DNA from: Rhodovarius crocodyli
GTDB lineage: Bacteria; Pseudomonadota; Alphaproteobacteria; Acetobacterales; Acetobacteraceae
Length of the DNA stretch: 64,000 nucleotides
Reading direction: 5' to 3'
Assembly (NCBI RefSeq): GCF_004005855.1
Contig: NZ_SACL01000008.1
Location: forward strand, 124,001 to 188,000
This document shows, in pieces, positions 20,973-28,524 of the stretch. A program made the position numbers and the translations under genes. Within the stretch, counting starts at the first letter, position 1; each line of letters begins with the position of its first letter. The notes beneath the pieces were generated by a model, which saw nothing but the letters and a program-made list of their open reading frames with translations, was not told the DNA's origin and made no database searches.

Positions 20973-21179
20973 CTATTCCTCCACCCTCCGGCCGCCATGT
21001 TCGGGCAACCTCCGCTTCGGTTCTTGCCGGGATGGCGCCTGGGTTGCAAGCACCGCGCCCGGCCACTTCATGGCAGGTGCATGTAATTTAGGCGTTTACC
21101 CGCCGTTTAGGTCGAGGTGCCAAGGATGCGGCCAGGGTCCGGATGTCCCGGTCCCGGATTGTCCTGAGGAAAAACCCCG
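20973..21179. other. Divergent intergenic region, pntAA / flagellin
   Basis: 207 bases that must hold the promoters of the pnt operon and of flagellin. A short AT-richer tract lies near 21080-21110 with TTTAGGCG and CGTTTAGG repeats, but no convincing sigma-28 or sigma-54 promoter was found. Confidence 0.5.
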
Positions 21180-22010
21180 ATGGCACTCAACAGCATCAAT
21201 ACCAATCTCGGCGCCCAGGTGGCGCTGCAATCCCTGAACCGCACGACGGACGAGCTGGCCTCGGTTCAGAAGCGCATCTCCACGGGCTATCGCGTGGCGG
21301 ATGCGAAGGACGATGGCGCGGCCTATGCCGTGGCCGAACGTGTGCGGGGCGAGATCGCCGCGACCACCTCGGCCAATGAGCAGCTGGGCGGGGCCAAGGG
21401 CCTGATCGACGTCACGAGCTCCAGCCTCCAGAACGTCTCGACCTCGCTGTCGAAGCTGAAGGAGATCACGGTGAAGCTGGCCGACGGCAGCATCACCACG
21501 GAGCAGCGGACGCAGTACCAGGCCCAGGCCAAGGAACTGACCAACAACGTCAAGGCCTTCGTGACGGACGCCACCTACAACGGGCAGAACCTGCTCAAGT
21601 CGGGTGGTGCCAGCGTGAATGTCGTGACGAACGGTTCGGGCAGCTCCTACACCGTGGCGGCGTATGACGCGGAGGCCAACATCTTCGACGGCGTCTCCGA
21701 CGCCAACACCTACACGGCCGGCGATGCGGCGGCGGCACTGACCACCACCGGCGCGCTGGGCGCGGCCATCACCAACACGCTCACCCAGCTCAATACCTTC
21801 GGCTCCTATTCCAACTACGTCGACACGCAGATCTCGTTCAACAAGGACAAGATCGACGCGATGGAGACGGGCATGGGCGCCCTCGTGGACGCGGACCTCG
21901 CCAAGGAATCGGCCCGGTTGCAGGCGCTGCAGATCCGTCAGCAGCTCGGCACCCAGTCGCTTGGCATCGCCAACCAGGCCCCGCAGGTCCTGCTGAGCCT
22001 GTTCCGCTGA
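21180..22010 (+). CDS. Flagellin
   Basis: A 276-residue flagellin, short for the family. The conserved N-terminal D0/D1 region (MALNSINTNLGAQVALQSLN to about residue 130) and C-terminal D1/D0 region (about 205-276, ending IANQAPQVLLSLFR) are intact; the variable centre is only about 75 residues, rich in Ser, Thr, Ala and Asn, giving many possible O-glycosylation sites. TGAGGA precedes the ATG. A hairpin with T-run follows, then flaF and two modification-type genes. Only one flagellin gene is in view. Confidence 0.95.
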   Translation: MALNSINTNLGAQVALQSLNRTTDELASVQKRISTGYRVADAKDDGAAYAVAERVRGEIAATTSANEQLGGAKGLIDVTSSSLQNVSTSLSKLKEITVKLADGSITTEQRTQYQAQAKELTNNVKAFVTDATYNGQNLLKSGGASVNVVTNGSGSSYTVAAYDAEANIFDGVSDANTYTAGDAAAALTTTGALGAAITNTLTQLNTFGSYSNYVDTQISFNKDKIDAMETGMGALVDADLAKESARLQALQIRQQLGTQSLGIANQAPQVLLSLFR

Positions 22011-22019
22011 TCCAGCCAA

Positions 22020-22050
22020 GGGCCTGGCAAAATGCCGGCCCGCCCTTTTT
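22020..22050 (+). terminator. Intrinsic terminator after flagellin
   Basis: GGGCC(T)GGC / GCCGGCCC stem with loop AAAAT, followed by GCCC and five T residues. It separates the abundant flagellin message from flaF; read-through could supply the downstream genes. Confidence 0.7.
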
Positions 22051-22078
22051 CCGCTGACCCCCAGAAAGTTCCCGCGCC

Positions 22079-22471
22079 ATGTCCGAAGCCCTGCTTTCCG
22101 CCCAGGCCTCCACGCCGGTGCAGCCCGGCGCCAGCGCCCCGCGCCCCGCGGGCGTCAATGCCTATGCCCGCCGCCGCAGCGCGAAGCAGCAGGAAGCCGA
22201 GGTCTTCGCCCGCGCCACGCGCAGCCTGCGCGAAGCGATGGGCACCGACCCCGCGCCCATGGCCGTGGCCCGCGCCGTCGCCGACAACCGCCGCCTGTGG
22301 GATGCGGTGAACATCGCCGTGATGGACCCCACCAACCAGCTTCCGCGCGAATTGCGCGCCCAGATCGCCTCCATCGCCCGCGCCGTGCTGCGCGAATGCG
22401 GCGAGGAGAAGCCCGATCTGTCCTTCATCGCCGACATGAACGAGCAGGTCGCCGGCGGCCTCTGGTCATGA
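22079..22471 (+). CDS. flaF: Flagellar biosynthesis regulator FlaF
   Basis: A 130-residue FlaF-family protein; the conserved core starts at NAYARRR and includes DNRRLWDAVNIAVMDPTNQL and LPRELRAQIASIARAV. In Caulobacter FlaF supports flagellin translation and secretion, opposed by FlbT; no flbT gene is in the window. Its stop overlaps the next start (ATGA), coupling it to the TPR-methyltransferase gene. Confidence 0.92.
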   Translation: MSEALLSAQASTPVQPGASAPRPAGVNAYARRRSAKQQEAEVFARATRSLREAMGTDPAPMAVARAVADNRRLWDAVNIAVMDPTNQLPRELRAQIASIARAVLRECGEEKPDLSFIADMNEQVAGGLWS

Positions 22472-23925
22472 GCGCCACCGCCGCCTGGGTGCCGCCCCTC
22501 GCCGCCCCGCCCCCGCTCGCCGACCGCCTGCTGGCCGAGGCCGGCCGCCTGATGGAGCGCGGCCAACCGGCCGAAGCCATGCCCCTGGCGCTCACCGCCA
22601 CCCGCCTGGCCCCCAGCGCCCCTGCCTGGATGGCGCTCGGCCGCGCCCGCGCCGCCCTGTCCGACGCGCCCGGCACCATCGAGGCCTGCGGCCGCGCCAT
22701 CGACCTGGGCGGCGACAGCGCCGAGGCGTTGCTGATGCGCGCCCGCGCCCATGCCCGTCTGGGCAATGCGCCGGCCCTGCTGGCCGATGCCGCGGGCGCG
22801 GTCTGCCTGGCCCCGCGCAGCACCGAGGCACGCATCCTGCTGGCCCACGCCCTGCTGATGGCCGAGGAATACGACGAGGCCCTGGCGGTGCTGGGCGACC
22901 TGTGGCGCGAGCAGCCCGAGGACCCTGTCGCGGCGCTCCGCCTGGCCGAGGCCTTTCAGCGCGCCGGCCGGCGCGAGGCAGCCGAGGAGCTGGCCTCCTC
23001 CATGCTCGATACCATTTCGCTCACGCCCGCGCAGCGGCGGCTGGCCCATGGCGTGCTGGCGCAATGCGCCCTGACCGCCGGTGACCCCGTGACCGCCCTG
23101 CACGCCGCCCAGCGCGGCATCGCCGATGCCGGCGCCGACATGCCGCTGTTGAGCCTGTCCGGCCATGCCCGCCTGAACAGCGGCGACGCGACCGGCGCCG
23201 CGCGCGACATCGAGGCGGCGCTGGCACTGGCCCCGCAGGACGGCTACCTGCGCCACCTCTCCGCCGCCCTGAACGATGATGTGGCGGAAGGCCGCGCGCC
23301 CGATGCCTATGTGGCGCATCTGTTCGACGGCTATGCCCGGCGCTTCGAGGCCTCGCTGTTCGGCCTGGGCTATCGCGTGCCCGGGCTGATGCTGCGCGCG
23401 CTGGAGGAACTGCGCCCGGGCCTCAGCCCCGCGCGGCCCATCGGCGATGTGCTGGACCTGGGCTGCGGCACCGGCCTTGTCGGCGTGGTGCTGCACGACA
23501 TGCTGGGCGGGCGGCTGGTCGGTGTCGACCTCTCCCCGGCCATGCTGCGGGAGGCCGAGACGAAACAGGTCTACAGCAGCCTGCACCGCGCCGAGCTCGG
23601 CAACTTCCTGCGCCAGGACCACGCCCGCTACCAGGCCGTGATCGCGGCGGACGTCTTCTGCTATTTCGGTGAGCTTCAGCCCGCCTTTGCCCTGGTGGCG
23701 CCCCGCCTGGCGCCGGGCGGCCATTTCCTGTTCTCCGTCGAACTGGGCGAGGGGACCGGCTGGGAGCTGGCCGGGTCGGGGCGCTATCGCCACGGGCTCG
23801 CGGCCGTCGAGGCAGCCCTTGCGGGCGCCGGGCTGACCCCCGTACTGCTGCGGCGGGAGGTGCTGCGCACCGAGCGCGAGCAGCCCGTGCAGGGCCTTCT
23901 GATCGCCGCCACGGTCGCGCCGTGA
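22468..23925 (+). CDS. TPR protein with C-terminal SAM-dependent methyltransferase domain
   Basis: A 485-residue protein. Residues about 20-285 are tetratricopeptide-like helical repeats (Ala/Leu-rich 34-residue pattern, for example ARAHARLGNAPALLADAAGA). Residues about 325-485 form a class I methyltransferase with SAM motif VLDLGCGTGLVGVV near 327 and an acidic DLSPAMLREAE loop. It overlaps flaF (ATGA) and the next glycosyltransferase gene (GTGA). The arrangement suggests the repeats dock a protein, likely flagellin or its glycosyltransferase, and the domain methylates it or its sugar. That job is inference. Confidence 0.82.
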   Translation: MSATAAWVPPLAAPPPLADRLLAEAGRLMERGQPAEAMPLALTATRLAPSAPAWMALGRARAALSDAPGTIEACGRAIDLGGDSAEALLMRARAHARLGNAPALLADAAGAVCLAPRSTEARILLAHALLMAEEYDEALAVLGDLWREQPEDPVAALRLAEAFQRAGRREAAEELASSMLDTISLTPAQRRLAHGVLAQCALTAGDPVTALHAAQRGIADAGADMPLLSLSGHARLNSGDATGAARDIEAALALAPQDGYLRHLSAALNDDVAEGRAPDAYVAHLFDGYARRFEASLFGLGYRVPGLMLRALEELRPGLSPARPIGDVLDLGCGTGLVGVVLHDMLGGRLVGVDLSPAMLREAETKQVYSSLHRAELGNFLRQDHARYQAVIAADVFCYFGELQPAFALVAPRLAPGGHFLFSVELGEGTGWELAGSGRYRHGLAAVEAALAGAGLTPVLLRREVLRTEREQPVQGLLIAATVAP

Positions 23926-26165
23926 ACCATATCCCGCCCTTCCGCCGCGCCATCCAGGCCCTGGCCGAGGGCCAGACGAGAGCCGCGCTGCCCTGGCTGC
24001 GTCAATCCATCGCCGAGGCGGACGAGCCGGAGCTGGCGCGGCTGAACCTGGGCATGGCGCTGGCCGATCTGGGCGAGTTCGGCGAGGCCGAGCCCCTGCT
24101 GCGCCGCGCCCTGCACGACATGCCCCGCCTGGCGGAGCCGCGCTTCCGGCTGGGCCGCATCGCCGCCCAGCGCCTGCAGCTGACCGAGGCGCGGGAGTGC
24201 TTCGAGGCCGCGCTTGCCACCGACCCCGGCCATGTCATGAGCCTCGTGGGTCTGGCCATGCTGGACGAAGCGGCGGGCAGGCCCGAGGCCGCGCTGGCGC
24301 TGCTGGACCACGCGGCATTGCTGGCGCCGTCGGACCGCGCGATCGCCCTGTTCCGCCTGCGCTGCCGGGCCGCGACCGAACCGGCGCATGCCGGCATGGA
24401 AATCGCGCTGTCGCTCCTCGCCTCGCCGGAAGGCTCGGTCGAGGACGCGCGGCTGGCGGCCAGCCTGCTGCCGCCCGCCGAGGCCCTGCCGAAGCTGGAG
24501 GCCGGTGCCGCCAATCAGCCGCTCAACTGGCGCTGGAGCTTCGCCATCGCGCTGGTCCAGCAGGCCGCCGGCGAGGATGAGGCCGCGGTCGCCAGCCTGC
24601 GGCTGGCCCATCTCGTCTCCGACGGGCTTCCGGCGGTGCAGGGCGAGTTGGGCATGCGCCTGGCCGGGCTTCGCCGCCATGCGGAGGCCGAGCCGCATCT
24701 CGCCCAGGCCACCCACTTCCTGCCGAGCGACCCGAGCTTCCGCAGCCAGCACGGCATCACGCTGTTCAAGCTGCATCGCTTCTCGGAAAGCCGCGCGGTG
24801 CTGGAGGCGGCAGTCCGGGATTTCGGCCCGCTGCCGACGCTGCTGGGCAATCTGGCACTGACGCTCAATGCCCAGGGGCTGCAGCGCGAGGCGCTGGCCA
24901 CCGCCCGGCGCACCCCGGAGAATGTGGCCGGCCTGGCCAACCGCCTTGGTGTGCAGCCCTATCATCCCCAGGAAGGAACGGCGGCCGCCCTGGCCGCGAC
25001 GGCCCGCGCGCTGGGTGCCCTGCTTCCTGCTCCGAGCCTGGCCTGCCACCCGCCGGGTTTCGACCCGCATCGACGGCTTCGCGTCGGCTTCCTGTCCAGC
25101 AGCTTCTCCCGCCACCCTGTCGGCTGGCTGACCCTGGCCGGCATCGAGGCACTGCCGCGCGAGGAAGTGGAGGTCGCCTGCTTCTCGCTGCGTCCGGGCT
25201 CGGACGCGCTGGCGCAACGCTTCCACGCCCGGGCCGATCTGTGGCGGGAACTGCCGAAGCTGGACGATCTGGCGCTGGTCGAGGCCATCCGCGCCGACCG
25301 GCCGGATATCCTGGTCGATCTGGGCGGCCATGGTGAGGGCGGGCGCGTGACTGCACTCGCCCACCGCGCGGCGCCCGTGCAGGTGAAGTGGGTGGGCGCA
25401 CAGAGCTGCACGACCGGCGTGCCCGGCCTGGACTGGATGCTGACCGACCGATGGGAAACCCCGCCCGGCAGCGAGGCCCACTATACCGAGCGCCTGCTCG
25501 CCATGCCCGATGGCTATGTCTGCTACACGCCGCCCGCCGCTGCGCCGCCCGTGGCCCCCCTGCCCGCTTCGACCCGGGGACAGGTGACCTTCGGCTGCTT
25601 CAACAACATGGCCAAGATGACGCCCGAGGTGCTGACAGCCTGGGCCGAGATCATGGCGGCGACCCCCGGCAGCCGCCTGGTACTGCGCACCCATGCGCTG
25701 GCCGATGCCGCCACCCGGCACCTTGTGCTGGAGCGCGCGGTGGCCTGCGGCCTCGACCCCGCCCGGATCGAGGCGCATGGGCCCGTGCCGCATGAGGCAT
25801 TGCTCGCCGCGTATGGGGAGATCGACATTGCGCTCGAGCCCTTCCCCTATGCCGGCGGGCTGACGGCCTGCGAGGCGCTCTACATGGGCGTGCCGCTCGT
25901 GGCGCTGGCCGGCAGCAGCTTTGCCGGGCGCCACGCCGTCTCGCACCTGTCCAATATCGGGCTGACGGATTGGATCACGGAGAGTGTTCCCGCCTATGTC
26001 AGGCGCGCCATCGCGGCAGCACAGGATGTGGTGGGGCTGCAGGACCTCCGGTCGGGTCTGCGGGCACGGATGGTGGCATCACCGCTGATGGACGCGCCCC
26101 GCTTCGGCAGGAACCTCGCCGTCGCCCTGCGCCATGCCTGGCACGAGCGCTGCCTGGCGCAGTAG
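23922..26165 (+). CDS. TPR/O-GlcNAc-transferase-like glycosyltransferase (FlmG-like, GT41)
   Basis: A 747-residue protein with a GTG start overlapping the previous stop. TPR repeats fill residues about 1-330; the C-terminal half (about 385-730) is SPINDLY/OGT-like, with RVGFLSSSFSRHPVGWL, the DILVDLGGHGEGGRVTALAH and PVQVKWVGAQSCTTGVPGLD blocks, FGCFNNMAKMTPEVLTAW, and PYAGGLTACEALYMGVPLVA. In Caulobacter FlmG has this same TPR-GT layout and glycosylates flagellin. Next to flagellin and flaF the same role is likely here. A tandem 17-base repeat and a two-way terminator follow. Confidence 0.87.
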   Translation: MNHIPPFRRAIQALAEGQTRAALPWLRQSIAEADEPELARLNLGMALADLGEFGEAEPLLRRALHDMPRLAEPRFRLGRIAAQRLQLTEARECFEAALATDPGHVMSLVGLAMLDEAAGRPEAALALLDHAALLAPSDRAIALFRLRCRAATEPAHAGMEIALSLLASPEGSVEDARLAASLLPPAEALPKLEAGAANQPLNWRWSFAIALVQQAAGEDEAAVASLRLAHLVSDGLPAVQGELGMRLAGLRRHAEAEPHLAQATHFLPSDPSFRSQHGITLFKLHRFSESRAVLEAAVRDFGPLPTLLGNLALTLNAQGLQREALATARRTPENVAGLANRLGVQPYHPQEGTAAALAATARALGALLPAPSLACHPPGFDPHRRLRVGFLSSSFSRHPVGWLTLAGIEALPREEVEVACFSLRPGSDALAQRFHARADLWRELPKLDDLALVEAIRADRPDILVDLGGHGEGGRVTALAHRAAPVQVKWVGAQSCTTGVPGLDWMLTDRWETPPGSEAHYTERLLAMPDGYVCYTPPAAAPPVAPLPASTRGQVTFGCFNNMAKMTPEVLTAWAEIMAATPGSRLVLRTHALADAATRHLVLERAVACGLDPARIEAHGPVPHEALLAAYGEIDIALEPFPYAGGLTACEALYMGVPLVALAGSSFAGRHAVSHLSNIGLTDWITESVPAYVRRAIAAAQDVVGLQDLRSGLRARMVASPLMDAPRFGRNLAVALRHAWHERCLAQ

Positions 26166-26170
26166 CCGGC

Positions 26171-26204
26171 GACTGGAAACGATCACCGACTGGAAACGAT
26201 CACC
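26171..26204 (+). repeat. Tandem 17-base duplication
   Basis: Two perfect adjacent copies of GACTGGAAACGATCACC (26171-26187 and 26188-26204), six bases after the glycosyltransferase stop. Looks like a recent slippage duplication; function unknown. Confidence 0.9.
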
Positions 26205-26212
26205 AGGGCAGC

Positions 26213-26247
26213 AAAAAACCCGCCTCCATTCAGGAAGGCGGGCTTTT
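26213..26247. terminator. Bidirectional intrinsic terminator
   Basis: AAAAAA, stem CCCGCCT (26219-26225) / AGGCGGG (26236-26242), then TTTT. It can stop transcription both of the flagellin-modification operon and, on the minus strand, of nepR; it overlaps the nepR stop codon by two bases. Confidence 0.85.
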
Positions 26248-26410
26248 AACGTTGCCGGTCCTTGTCGATCAGGGCCAGCAATTCGGGTGGGATAGGTTCA
26301 CGCGCGACATCATCGAACATGTCATGCAGGCCGCGTTTCAACCACAGGTCGAAAGCGTCCCGCGGGGAGGAAGCCCTCCCCTTTCGCGCCTGAACCGGGC
26401 GCGCGGGCAT
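26246..26410 (-). CDS. nepR: NepR anti-sigma factor of the general stress response
   Basis: A 54-residue protein carrying the NepR core FDLWLKRGLHDMFDDVAREP followed by IPPELLALID. NepR binds EcfG and is displaced by phosphorylated PhyR. The ATG at 26410 is chosen because a near-perfect anti-Shine-Dalgarno match AGGAGGTGAT lies six bases upstream; an in-frame GTG at 26443 would give 65 residues. It follows an ecfG gene on the same strand, the reverse of the usual nepR-ecfG order. Confidence 0.88.
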   Translation of the reverse strand: MPARPVQARKGRASSPRDAFDLWLKRGLHDMFDDVAREPIPPELLALIDKDRQR

Positions 26411-26469: not shown

Positions 26470-27099
26470 TCAGTGCTGCAGGGAGATCCCAGCAGCATCG
26501 TTACGCATGTTACGCGAATCACGAGCCTGTGCGCCAGCCGTCTTAGCAGCACGGGGCGCCTTGGACCGGCTCGGGGCTTCCTCGCCCATCAGCCAGGCTT
26601 CCAGCTGCTTCCGTGCCCGGAAAACCCGGCACTTCAGCGTGCCGACGGCAACGCCCAGTTCCTCGGACACTTCCTCATAGGACATGCCCTGGACGGTCAC
26701 CATCATCAGCGCCAGGCGCTGATCGGCCGGCAGGCGCGCCAGGTTGCGGCGCAGTTCCTGCATCACCAGGCTGTCTTCCTGGCCGCCACTGCGGGCGAAG
26801 ATCTCGGCGGGCGCATCCTCGACCGCCACCGTCTCACGCTTGCGGCGCATGTCCGACAGGAAGCGATTGCGCACGATGCGCAGCATCCATGCCTTGAAAT
26901 TCGTGCCCGGCTGGAAGCTGTTCTTGGCGGCCAGGGCATTGCCCACCGCAGCCTGCACCAGATCGTCGGCGTCAGCGCGGTTGCGGGTCAACGCGTAGGC
27001 CTGCTGGCGGAGAGAGGGCAGAACCTCCACGAGGGCCGTGTGGAAATCCCACTCGGCGGCGGCGTCGTCCTGCACCAGGGTCTGGTCGTTCAGCGTCAT
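26470..27099 (-). CDS. ecfG: EcfG-family (ECF15) sigma factor, first copy
   Basis: A 209-residue ECF sigma factor. Region 2 contains NRADADDLVQAAVGNALAAK and NFKAWMLRIVRNRFLSDMRR; region 4 contains MSYEEVSEELGVAVGTLKCR. A basic, Ala-rich C-terminal tail of about 35 residues follows. Start at 27099 has GGAG eight bases upstream. It probably forms an operon with nepR. The region 4 block departs from the usual REALILVGAxGFSYEEAAE pattern (it reads RLALMMVTVQGMSYEEVSE), so it may be a specialised paralogue. A candidate EcfG-type promoter lies about 100 bases upstream. Confidence 0.87.
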   Translation of the reverse strand: MTLNDQTLVQDDAAAEWDFHTALVEVLPSLRQQAYALTRNRADADDLVQAAVGNALAAKNSFQPGTNFKAWMLRIVRNRFLSDMRRKRETVAVEDAPAEIFARSGGQEDSLVMQELRRNLARLPADQRLALMMVTVQGMSYEEVSEELGVAVGTLKCRVFRARKQLEAWLMGEEAPSRSKAPRAAKTAGAQARDSRNMRNDAAGISLQH

Positions 27100-27199
27100 G
27101 CTTCTGCTCCGTTCCTGATTGCACAACGCCACGTCCCTCCGATCGGTTGCCGAGGGCCGCAATAGAAAATGCATGGCAGACATGAGTTTTTCGGTGGGC

Positions 27200-27224
27200 A
27201 ACTTTGGCGACCGCGGAACATTCC
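27200..27224 (-). promoter_or_regulatory. Candidate EcfG-dependent promoter of the ecfG-nepR unit
   Basis: On the minus strand GGAAT (27224-27220), 17 bases, then GTT (27202-27200). The general-stress consensus is GGAAC-N16/17-cGTT; four of five -35 bases and the GTT core match with the right spacing. Suggests autoregulation. Confidence 0.45.
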
Positions 27225-27257
27225 ACCCGCATGTGCTTTTCCGCCCCCGCCACCGGG

Positions 27258-27752
27258 TCAGGACAGAGAATGACCATGGTTGGCGCGCAACCGTGCGCGT
27301 CCGCGAGAGATGCGCGCCTTCACCGTCCCCTCCGCGACGCCGCACAGCTGCGCGGCCTCAGCGATGCTGAAGCCCTGGGCGCCGAGAACGAGCGCCTCGC
27401 GTTCCAGCGGGGGCAGCTGCCTCAGCGCCTCCATCAGTTCCAACCGTCCGGTGCCCGAAGGGTTGCGCGCCTCCTCCTCGCCGGCCAGGTCGCTTTCCAG
27501 CGCCTGGCGGCGGCGGCCGCGCCGCAGTCCGGACAGCCACAGGTTGCGCAGGATGGTGAACATCCAGGCCCTGGGGTCATCGCCCTCACGCCATTGGTCC
27601 GCGTGGTCCAGCCCGCGCAGCACCGCGTCATGCACCAGGTCATCGGCGGCGGACGCATCACGGACCAGACTGCGCGCATAGGCACGCAGCGGCCCGAGCA
27701 GCCCCGGCAAGTGATCCCTCAGGCTGCCCCGGTTGTCCTGCGTGCTTGTCAT
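27258..27752 (-). CDS. EcfG-family (ECF15) sigma factor, second copy
   Basis: A 164-residue ECF sigma factor divergent from phyR. Region 2 includes ASAADDLVHDAVLRGLDHAD and WMFTILRNLWLSGLRR; region 4 reads LEREALVLGAQGFSIAEAAQ then LCGVAEGTVKARISRGRARL, close to the EcfG signature. Being next to phyR and near nepR, it is a strong candidate for the NepR-controlled stress sigma factor. The start is uncertain: ATG 27752 has GGGAGG directly against it, while a GTG at 27767 has no clear site. Confidence 0.85.
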   Translation of the reverse strand: MTSTQDNRGSLRDHLPGLLGPLRAYARSLVRDASAADDLVHDAVLRGLDHADQWREGDDPRAWMFTILRNLWLSGLRRGRRRQALESDLAGEEEARNPSGTGRLELMEALRQLPPLEREALVLGAQGFSIAEAAQLCGVAEGTVKARISRGRARLRANHGHSLS

Positions 27753-27798
27753 CCTCCCTATTCTCACATTGAATCACTGTTCCGTCAGGAGTGTCCCC

Positions 27799-28524
27799 AT
27801 GCCCACCATTGATCCCGAGGCGCTGAAGGCCGCCCTGCCCTTCGCCCGCCGCTTCGCGCGGGCGCTGACAGGCGACCAGGCCTCCGGGGACAGCGTCGTC
27901 GCCGCCTGCCTGCGCAAGGGCTTGCCGGATCTGCCCGGCCACCTTGCGCTGCATGCCGCCATCGCGCGCGAGGTTCCCGAGGCGCCTCCTTCGCCGGATG
28001 AGCCGCTGACCGGCATCCAGCGCCGCCTGATGCTGCTGACCGCGCTGGAGGAGCTCAGCCTCTCCGACGCCGCGATGGTGCTCGGCATTTCCGAGGAGGA
28101 AGCGACCGACGGGCTGGCCGGCGCGCGGGACAACCTGAAGCGCGCCGCCACCACCGATGTGCTGATCATCGAGGATGAACCGCTGATCGCCATGGATCTT
28201 CGCATCCTGGTGCAGCAGTGCGGCCATCGGGTGGTGGGTCTCGCCGCTTCCGAGGACGCGGCCATCCAGCTCGCGGCACAGCACCGCCCCGGCCTGATCC
28301 TGGCCGACATCAACCTGGGCCGCGGCGGGGACGGCATGAACGCCGTGCGCCGCATCCTGCGCACCAGCCATGTGCCGGTCATCTTCATTACGGCCTACCC
28401 GCAGAAGCTGCTGACCGCGGAGGGGCTGGAGCCCGCCTTCGTGATCAACAAGCCCTTCGACCGGCTGTCGGTCTCCATCGCGACCTATCAGGCGGTCTCG
28501 GCCGGAAAACTGCCGATCGCCTGA
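27799..28524 (+). CDS. phyR: PhyR general stress response regulator
   Basis: A 241-residue protein with the diagnostic inverted layout: N-terminal sigma-like domain (about 1-115) and C-terminal receiver (about 118-240). The receiver has the acidic pocket IIEDEP, phospho-acceptor Asp170 (LILADINLG) and a Lys in VINKPFD. When phosphorylated the sigma-like part mimics EcfG and captures NepR. It is divergent from the second sigma gene, with only 46 bases between. The histidine kinase that phosphorylates it (PhyK/HWE type) is not in the window. Confidence 0.95.
   Translation: MPTIDPEALKAALPFARRFARALTGDQASGDSVVAACLRKGLPDLPGHLALHAAIAREVPEAPPSPDEPLTGIQRRLMLLTALEELSLSDAAMVLGISEEEATDGLAGARDNLKRAATTDVLIIEDEPLIAMDLRILVQQCGHRVVGLAASEDAAIQLAAQHRPGLILADINLGRGGDGMNAVRRILRTSHVPVIFITAYPQKLLTAEGLEPAFVINKPFDRLSVSIATYQAVSAGKLPIA

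Follow-up and report, generated by a model that had tools for sequence, protein, structure and literature searches.

A conserved flagellin-linked pair of TPR enzymes in the Acetobacteraceae, and lineages that keep the TPR half of the methyltransferase without its catalytic domain

Directly downstream of a flagellin gene in Rhodovarius crocodyli, within the 64,000-nucleotide stretch of DNA that we analyzed (hereafter, the window), two TPR proteins, a methyltransferase and a GT41 glycosyltransferase, are encoded as a pair that forms a conserved module in the Acetobacteraceae. What is new here is that in 13 of 99 readable loci, belonging to four genera, the methyltransferase domain is missing while the TPR half of the protein stands intact beside the glycosyltransferase. 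We propose, with a probability of roughly 65%, that the operon encodes a module for modifying flagellin in the cytoplasm, in which the GT41 enzyme glycosylates flagellin, methylation is an optional last step, and docking is through TPR repeats.

The operon lies on the + strand as one tightly packed unit. Flagellin (21180..22010), the presumed substrate, has 276 aa and no outer domains (Pfam Flagellin_N and Flagellin_C: PF00669, 7e-23; PF00700, 1.5e-12). It is followed by flaF, a flagellin secretion chaperone/regulator (22079..22471; PF07309, 3.6e-18), by the gene for the TPR-methyltransferase (22468..23925; 485 aa) and by that for the TPR-GT41 glycosyltransferase of the SPINDLY/OGT type (23922..26165; 747 aa), which starts with GTG. 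Both joints are exact 4-bp overlaps, ATGA between flaF and the methyltransferase (22468-22471) and GTGA between the methyltransferase stop and the glycosyltransferase start (23922-23925). The unit that the sequence-only reading had described after flagellin, of flaF, a TPR-methyltransferase and a TPR-OGT-like enzyme with these two joints, is thus confirmed by coordinates and Pfam matches.

We also inspected the flanks. A sigma-54-like site, TGGCGC-N5-TTGC (21033-21047), 147 bp 5' of flagellin, was rejected as a flagellar promoter because it was found in one of 34 flagellin upstream regions and the window holds two such sites against 0.93 expected. An Rfam search of the whole window gave no match. 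On the 3' side of the glycosyltransferase stop lie a short tandem duplication (gactggaaacgatcacc twice, 26166-26203) and an inverted repeat between A and T runs (26215-26250), matched by the terminator scan on the minus strand only; together they are possibly a two-way terminator. Directly 3' of the cassette lies a general stress response locus (26473-28521), in which the - strand encodes two ECF-like members of the sigma-70 family and the + strand a PhyR-type response regulator. The same genome encodes a second flagellin, 75% identical to the first (L003 9530-10360; C11:1009530-1010360), with no adjoining modification genes; it may be modified in trans.

Both enzymes gave confident AlphaFold models, with folds assigned from model secondary structure and family matches only. 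The methyltransferase (mean pLDDT 91.6) consists of an all-helical repeat half (about residues 15-268; 22510..23271, +), which matches Pfam TPR_19, and a Rossmann-type class I SAM methyltransferase domain (about residues 277-485; 23296..23922, +), delimited by Pfam (Methyltransf_25, 4e-13), invariant columns and the model. This domain carries the glycine motif LDLGCGTG, the acidic D354 after strand 2 and an intact D395. Neither these two aspartates nor the key glycines vary among 20 members. Of 84 methyltransferases, 79 have the exact SAM motif; loosened versions (GCGAG, GCGGG) are still plausible, and only one protein (L108) was counted as degenerate. The glycosyltransferase (mean pLDDT 91.4) has a longer helical superhelix (about residues 6-367; 23937..25022, +; model helices and Pfam TPR) followed by a GT-B-like alpha/beta catalytic domain (residues 381-747; 25062..26162, +), placed by alignment to SPY and OGT and by invariant columns. 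It matches PF13844 above the cut-off (9.7e-35), and its catalytic domain comes closest to plant SPINDLY (4e-84) and the bacterial TPR-OGT of T. terrenum (5djs, 8e-75). In SPY, K665 is essential and H495 is an active-site residue (PMC9715652). SPY K665 aligns to Lys565 here, and the catalytic Lys565 and His398 are invariant in an alignment of 21 cassette members.

The arrangement is conserved far beyond chance. The two enzymes are adjacent, in the same order and on the same strand, in 45 of 150 Acetobacteraceae genomes, and flagellin lies 460-2106 bp upstream of the pair in 42 of these; in the other three (G103, G105, G134) the contigs end before flagellin. The assignment of both enzymes to flagellin biology therefore stands, as does the conservation of the pairing. 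Wider loci commonly follow the order flgE-flgK-flgL-fliC-flbT-flaF-DUF1217-methyltransferase-glycosyltransferase, of which flbT and DUF1217 are missing from the cassette in the window's clade. Co-occurrence with flagellin elsewhere, which the earlier reading expected, was found as well: short-flagellin genomes encode the glycosyltransferase in 57 of 69 cases, and the remaining genomes in 2 of 81 (Fisher p = 9e-27, uncorrected for relatedness). Eight short-flagellin genomes without it (G003, G005, G006, G028, G104, G108, G115, G127) keep flagellin-flbT-flaF, mostly followed by DUF1217; both enzymes are missing there, and the cassettes that could be read through end at DUF1217 or flaF. The flagellin centre is indeed small and Ser/Thr-rich (25%), as had been remarked, but its richness was rejected as a glycosylation signal: relatives without the cassette span 14% to 35%. 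Flagellin residues T188 and T202 differ between the groups with and without the cassette, groups that are also clades.

Outside the family, among 385 sampled genomes of the class, no adjacent same-strand pair in the same order was found. Looser links do occur there: GT41 and methyltransferase genes accompany flagellins at two loci (L246, L247), and one genome (G493; L231, L232) carries flagellin-flaF-DUF1217-TPR-methyltransferase twice, with a GT41 gene convergent to one copy. Elsewhere, GT41 genes form arrays in line with flagellins, six with three (L249 2144-16513) and four with two (L233 829-11150), a pattern that would suit one transferase per flagellin or per site.

We then widened the glycosyltransferase search to 397 genomes of the family, of which 126, in 43 genera, encode the enzyme, and, at 99 loci, classified the gene just upstream of it by hidden Markov models for the two methyltransferase halves. 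Eighty-three loci encode the full protein and 13 the TPR half only. The remaining three are one odd case each: a methyltransferase domain that is present with its motifs destroyed (L108), a TPR reading frame of only about 160 aa upstream of the glycosyltransferase (L122) and an empty slot (L105). One genus dominates the TPR-only set, with ten species of g96 next to G034, G051 and G535. The TPR-only genes are intact and seem to be orthologues of the TPR half rather than arbitrary TPR proteins: their position in the cassette is identical, they touch or overlap the start of the glycosyltransferase gene, and the TPR-half model scores them at 107-282 bits versus at most 78 (median 38) for the TPR parts of the glycosyltransferase genes. 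Over the TPR part, two of them resemble full enzymes of their own genera, at 71% identity over 252 residues (L270 with L081) and 64% over 264 residues (L262 with L095). In the four TPR-only proteins searched, Pfam detected essentially TPR-type repeats alone and no methyltransferase. The g96 gene evolves under purifying selection, with dN/dS of 0.11-0.39; values of 0.11 and 0.19 come from the two most similar pairs, and dS is near saturation in most others.

On an unrooted tree built from flagellin only, the methyltransferase state corresponds to five changes among genomes with the glycosyltransferase, and the TPR-only label to four. One clade displays stepwise decay: motifs are relaxed in g59 and destroyed in G023, and the domain is deleted in G034 and g96. 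The reverse loss, of the glycosyltransferase with the methyltransferase kept, was seen once (G099). The order proposed from the sequence alone, glycosylation and then methylation, fits this asymmetry. The docking idea, too, gained support, in an unexpected way and in refined form: the TPR half outlives the methyltransferase half. Its persistence where the methyltransferase domain has gone suggests a function of its own; a TPR partner can nevertheless be dispensed with, as the glycosyltransferase of one genome (G027) has none.

These observations lead us to the following mechanism, in which the sugar, its attachment sites, the acceptor of the methyl group, the order of steps and the docking partners are predictions from sequence. 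Flagellin would be made beside its chaperone FlaF; the TPR-GT41 enzyme would bind it via the TPR superhelix and add to Ser/Thr a sugar derived from a common nucleotide sugar; the TPR-methyltransferase would then dock on the same complex via its own TPR half and methylate the added sugar. Methylation would be an optional late step because the 13 loci lost the methyltransferase domain and kept the TPR half, which may also dock or present flagellin to the glycosyltransferase. Glycosylation by GT41 thus looks like the core reaction and methylation like a tailoring step given up by several lineages. We give about even odds to a stronger version, in which the TPR half is an independent flagellin adaptor to GT41, the methyltransferase domain is a detachable part dropped about four or five times, and both the adaptor and its link to the glycosyltransferase have mostly remained under selection.

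The loss pattern also bears on what is methylated. The methyltransferase fold is generic and its acceptor could be protein, not sugar; the enzyme might then methylate flagellin side chains directly, independent of any sugar, an outcome like that of Salmonella FliB, the precedent for flagellin methylation (PMC4875605), reached by another enzyme. G099, with its methyltransferase and no glycosyltransferase, would suit such an activity. However, the FliB family model does not match the methyltransferase, which is hit by generic methyltransferase and TPR models only, and a lone methyltransferase is confined to that one genome against about five changes in the opposite direction, so we regard direct methylation as unlikely, at perhaps one chance in five. 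G099 (L257) is also among the few genomes with NeuB, and a swap to another transferase is possible there.

A somewhat less probable alternative is that the TPR-methyltransferase acts mainly as a flagellin chaperone or export adaptor together with FlaF, with catalysis secondary. The purifying selection on the TPR half where it stands without the methyltransferase domain speaks for such a role. In the full proteins, however, the methyltransferase domain is better conserved than the TPR half (48% versus 40% mean pairwise identity), which argues that catalysis is selected for and that the domain is not decaying everywhere; moreover, relatives that have flagellin and flaF but no glycosyltransferase also lack the TPR protein.

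Which sugar the glycosyltransferase might use was approached by elimination. The sequence-only reading had called the enzyme FlmG-like, and its layout, TPR repeats followed by GT-B, is correct. FlmG of Caulobacter requires pseudaminic acid (PMC7591256), and FlmG-type chemistry did not hold up: of the 150 genomes of the family, 5 encode NeuB (PF03102), and none of the 45 with the adjacent pair is among them; the window's own genome lacks it too, while the Caulobacter control matches. A nonulosonic acid was therefore rejected as the shared donor, and a true FlmG system transferring pseudaminic or another nonulosonic acid, which the shared layout and the position beside flaF and flagellin genes (PMC7591256) would favor, is already contradicted and very improbable. 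GDP-fucose was rejected as well, a true GDP-mannose dehydratase (gmd) being absent in 18 of the 45 pair genomes by hand count. Nor does the enzyme align as a SPINDLY O-fucosyltransferase, since the guanine-stacking H728 and the phosphate-binding T748 of SPY are replaced by Leu627 and Leu647. With NeuB and gmd so distributed, a common nucleotide sugar is the likely donor; our best guess is UDP-GlcNAc, the simplest universal one.

That the pair modifies an envelope polysaccharide, its place by flagellin being incidental, is as improbable as a true FlmG system: related TPR-methyltransferases do lie away from flagellin in many genomes, but co-occurrence and synteny with flagellin are tight across dozens of genera, and the cassette showed no genes for sugar polymers. 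In other genomes, paralogous TPR-methyltransferases adjoin formate-tetrahydrofolate ligase (PF01268) or lie near it in several genera (L118 7058-9942, L120 7326-10207, L121 6794-10505; also near in L114-L116), and a link of this methyltransferase family to one-carbon metabolism is possible. The paralogue of the window's own genome (L109) has a different neighbor.

The combination of GT41 and methyltransferase in flagellin loci is already known from Enterobacteriaceae, which weakens the earlier statement that no description of the paired arrangement was known. Enterobacterial flagellin islands, which are variable insertions next to fliC and often include genes for sugar biosynthesis, encode SPINDLY-type GT41 proteins (COG3914), most of which have a fused methyltransferase domain; the fusion was found in 194 strains (PMC4875605). 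In the Acetobacteraceae as well, GT41 and SAM methyltransferase functions are encoded beside flagellin; unlike in the islands, they reside in two separate TPR proteins, whose genes share a 4-bp overlap; the pair has remained stable within the family, and no sugar genes turned up in the cassette. The literature we searched, which covered few subscription papers, held no description of the two-protein TPR form, its stability or the separable TPR half.

Among its wider relatives, the glycosyltransferase shares with SPINDLY and OGT the GT41 family, the TPR arrangement and the catalytic Lys and His, and differs from SPINDLY in the two leucines noted above; the absence of gmd from 18 of the 45 pair genomes makes a fucose donor unlikely. 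The methyltransferase resembles the stand-alone TPR-methyltransferases of its superfamily in joining TPR repeats to a class I domain; unlike it, the paralogue in its own genome (38% identity) is encoded elsewhere, away from flagellin. The idea that cytoplasmic O-glycosyltransferases select flagellin by TPR docking is based largely on one enzyme, FlmG of Caulobacter crescentus, which O-glycosylates flagellin in the cytoplasm (PMC7591256). A conserved operon of two TPR proteins, together with natural lineages that have the scaffold minus the enzyme, makes docking and catalysis separable by gene swaps. The Caulobacter control yielded a GT41 match above the cut-off, in a gene that is not named. 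In the enzyme described here, Pfam and AlphaFold give the same TPR N-terminus and GT-B C-terminus as in FlmG; it is longer (747 versus 596 aa) and coupled to a methyltransferase, whereas the FlmG paper names no such partner (PMC7591256). With NeuB absent where FlmG needs pseudaminic acid, the module suggests a soluble flagellin transferase of the GT41 family that can do without this sugar.
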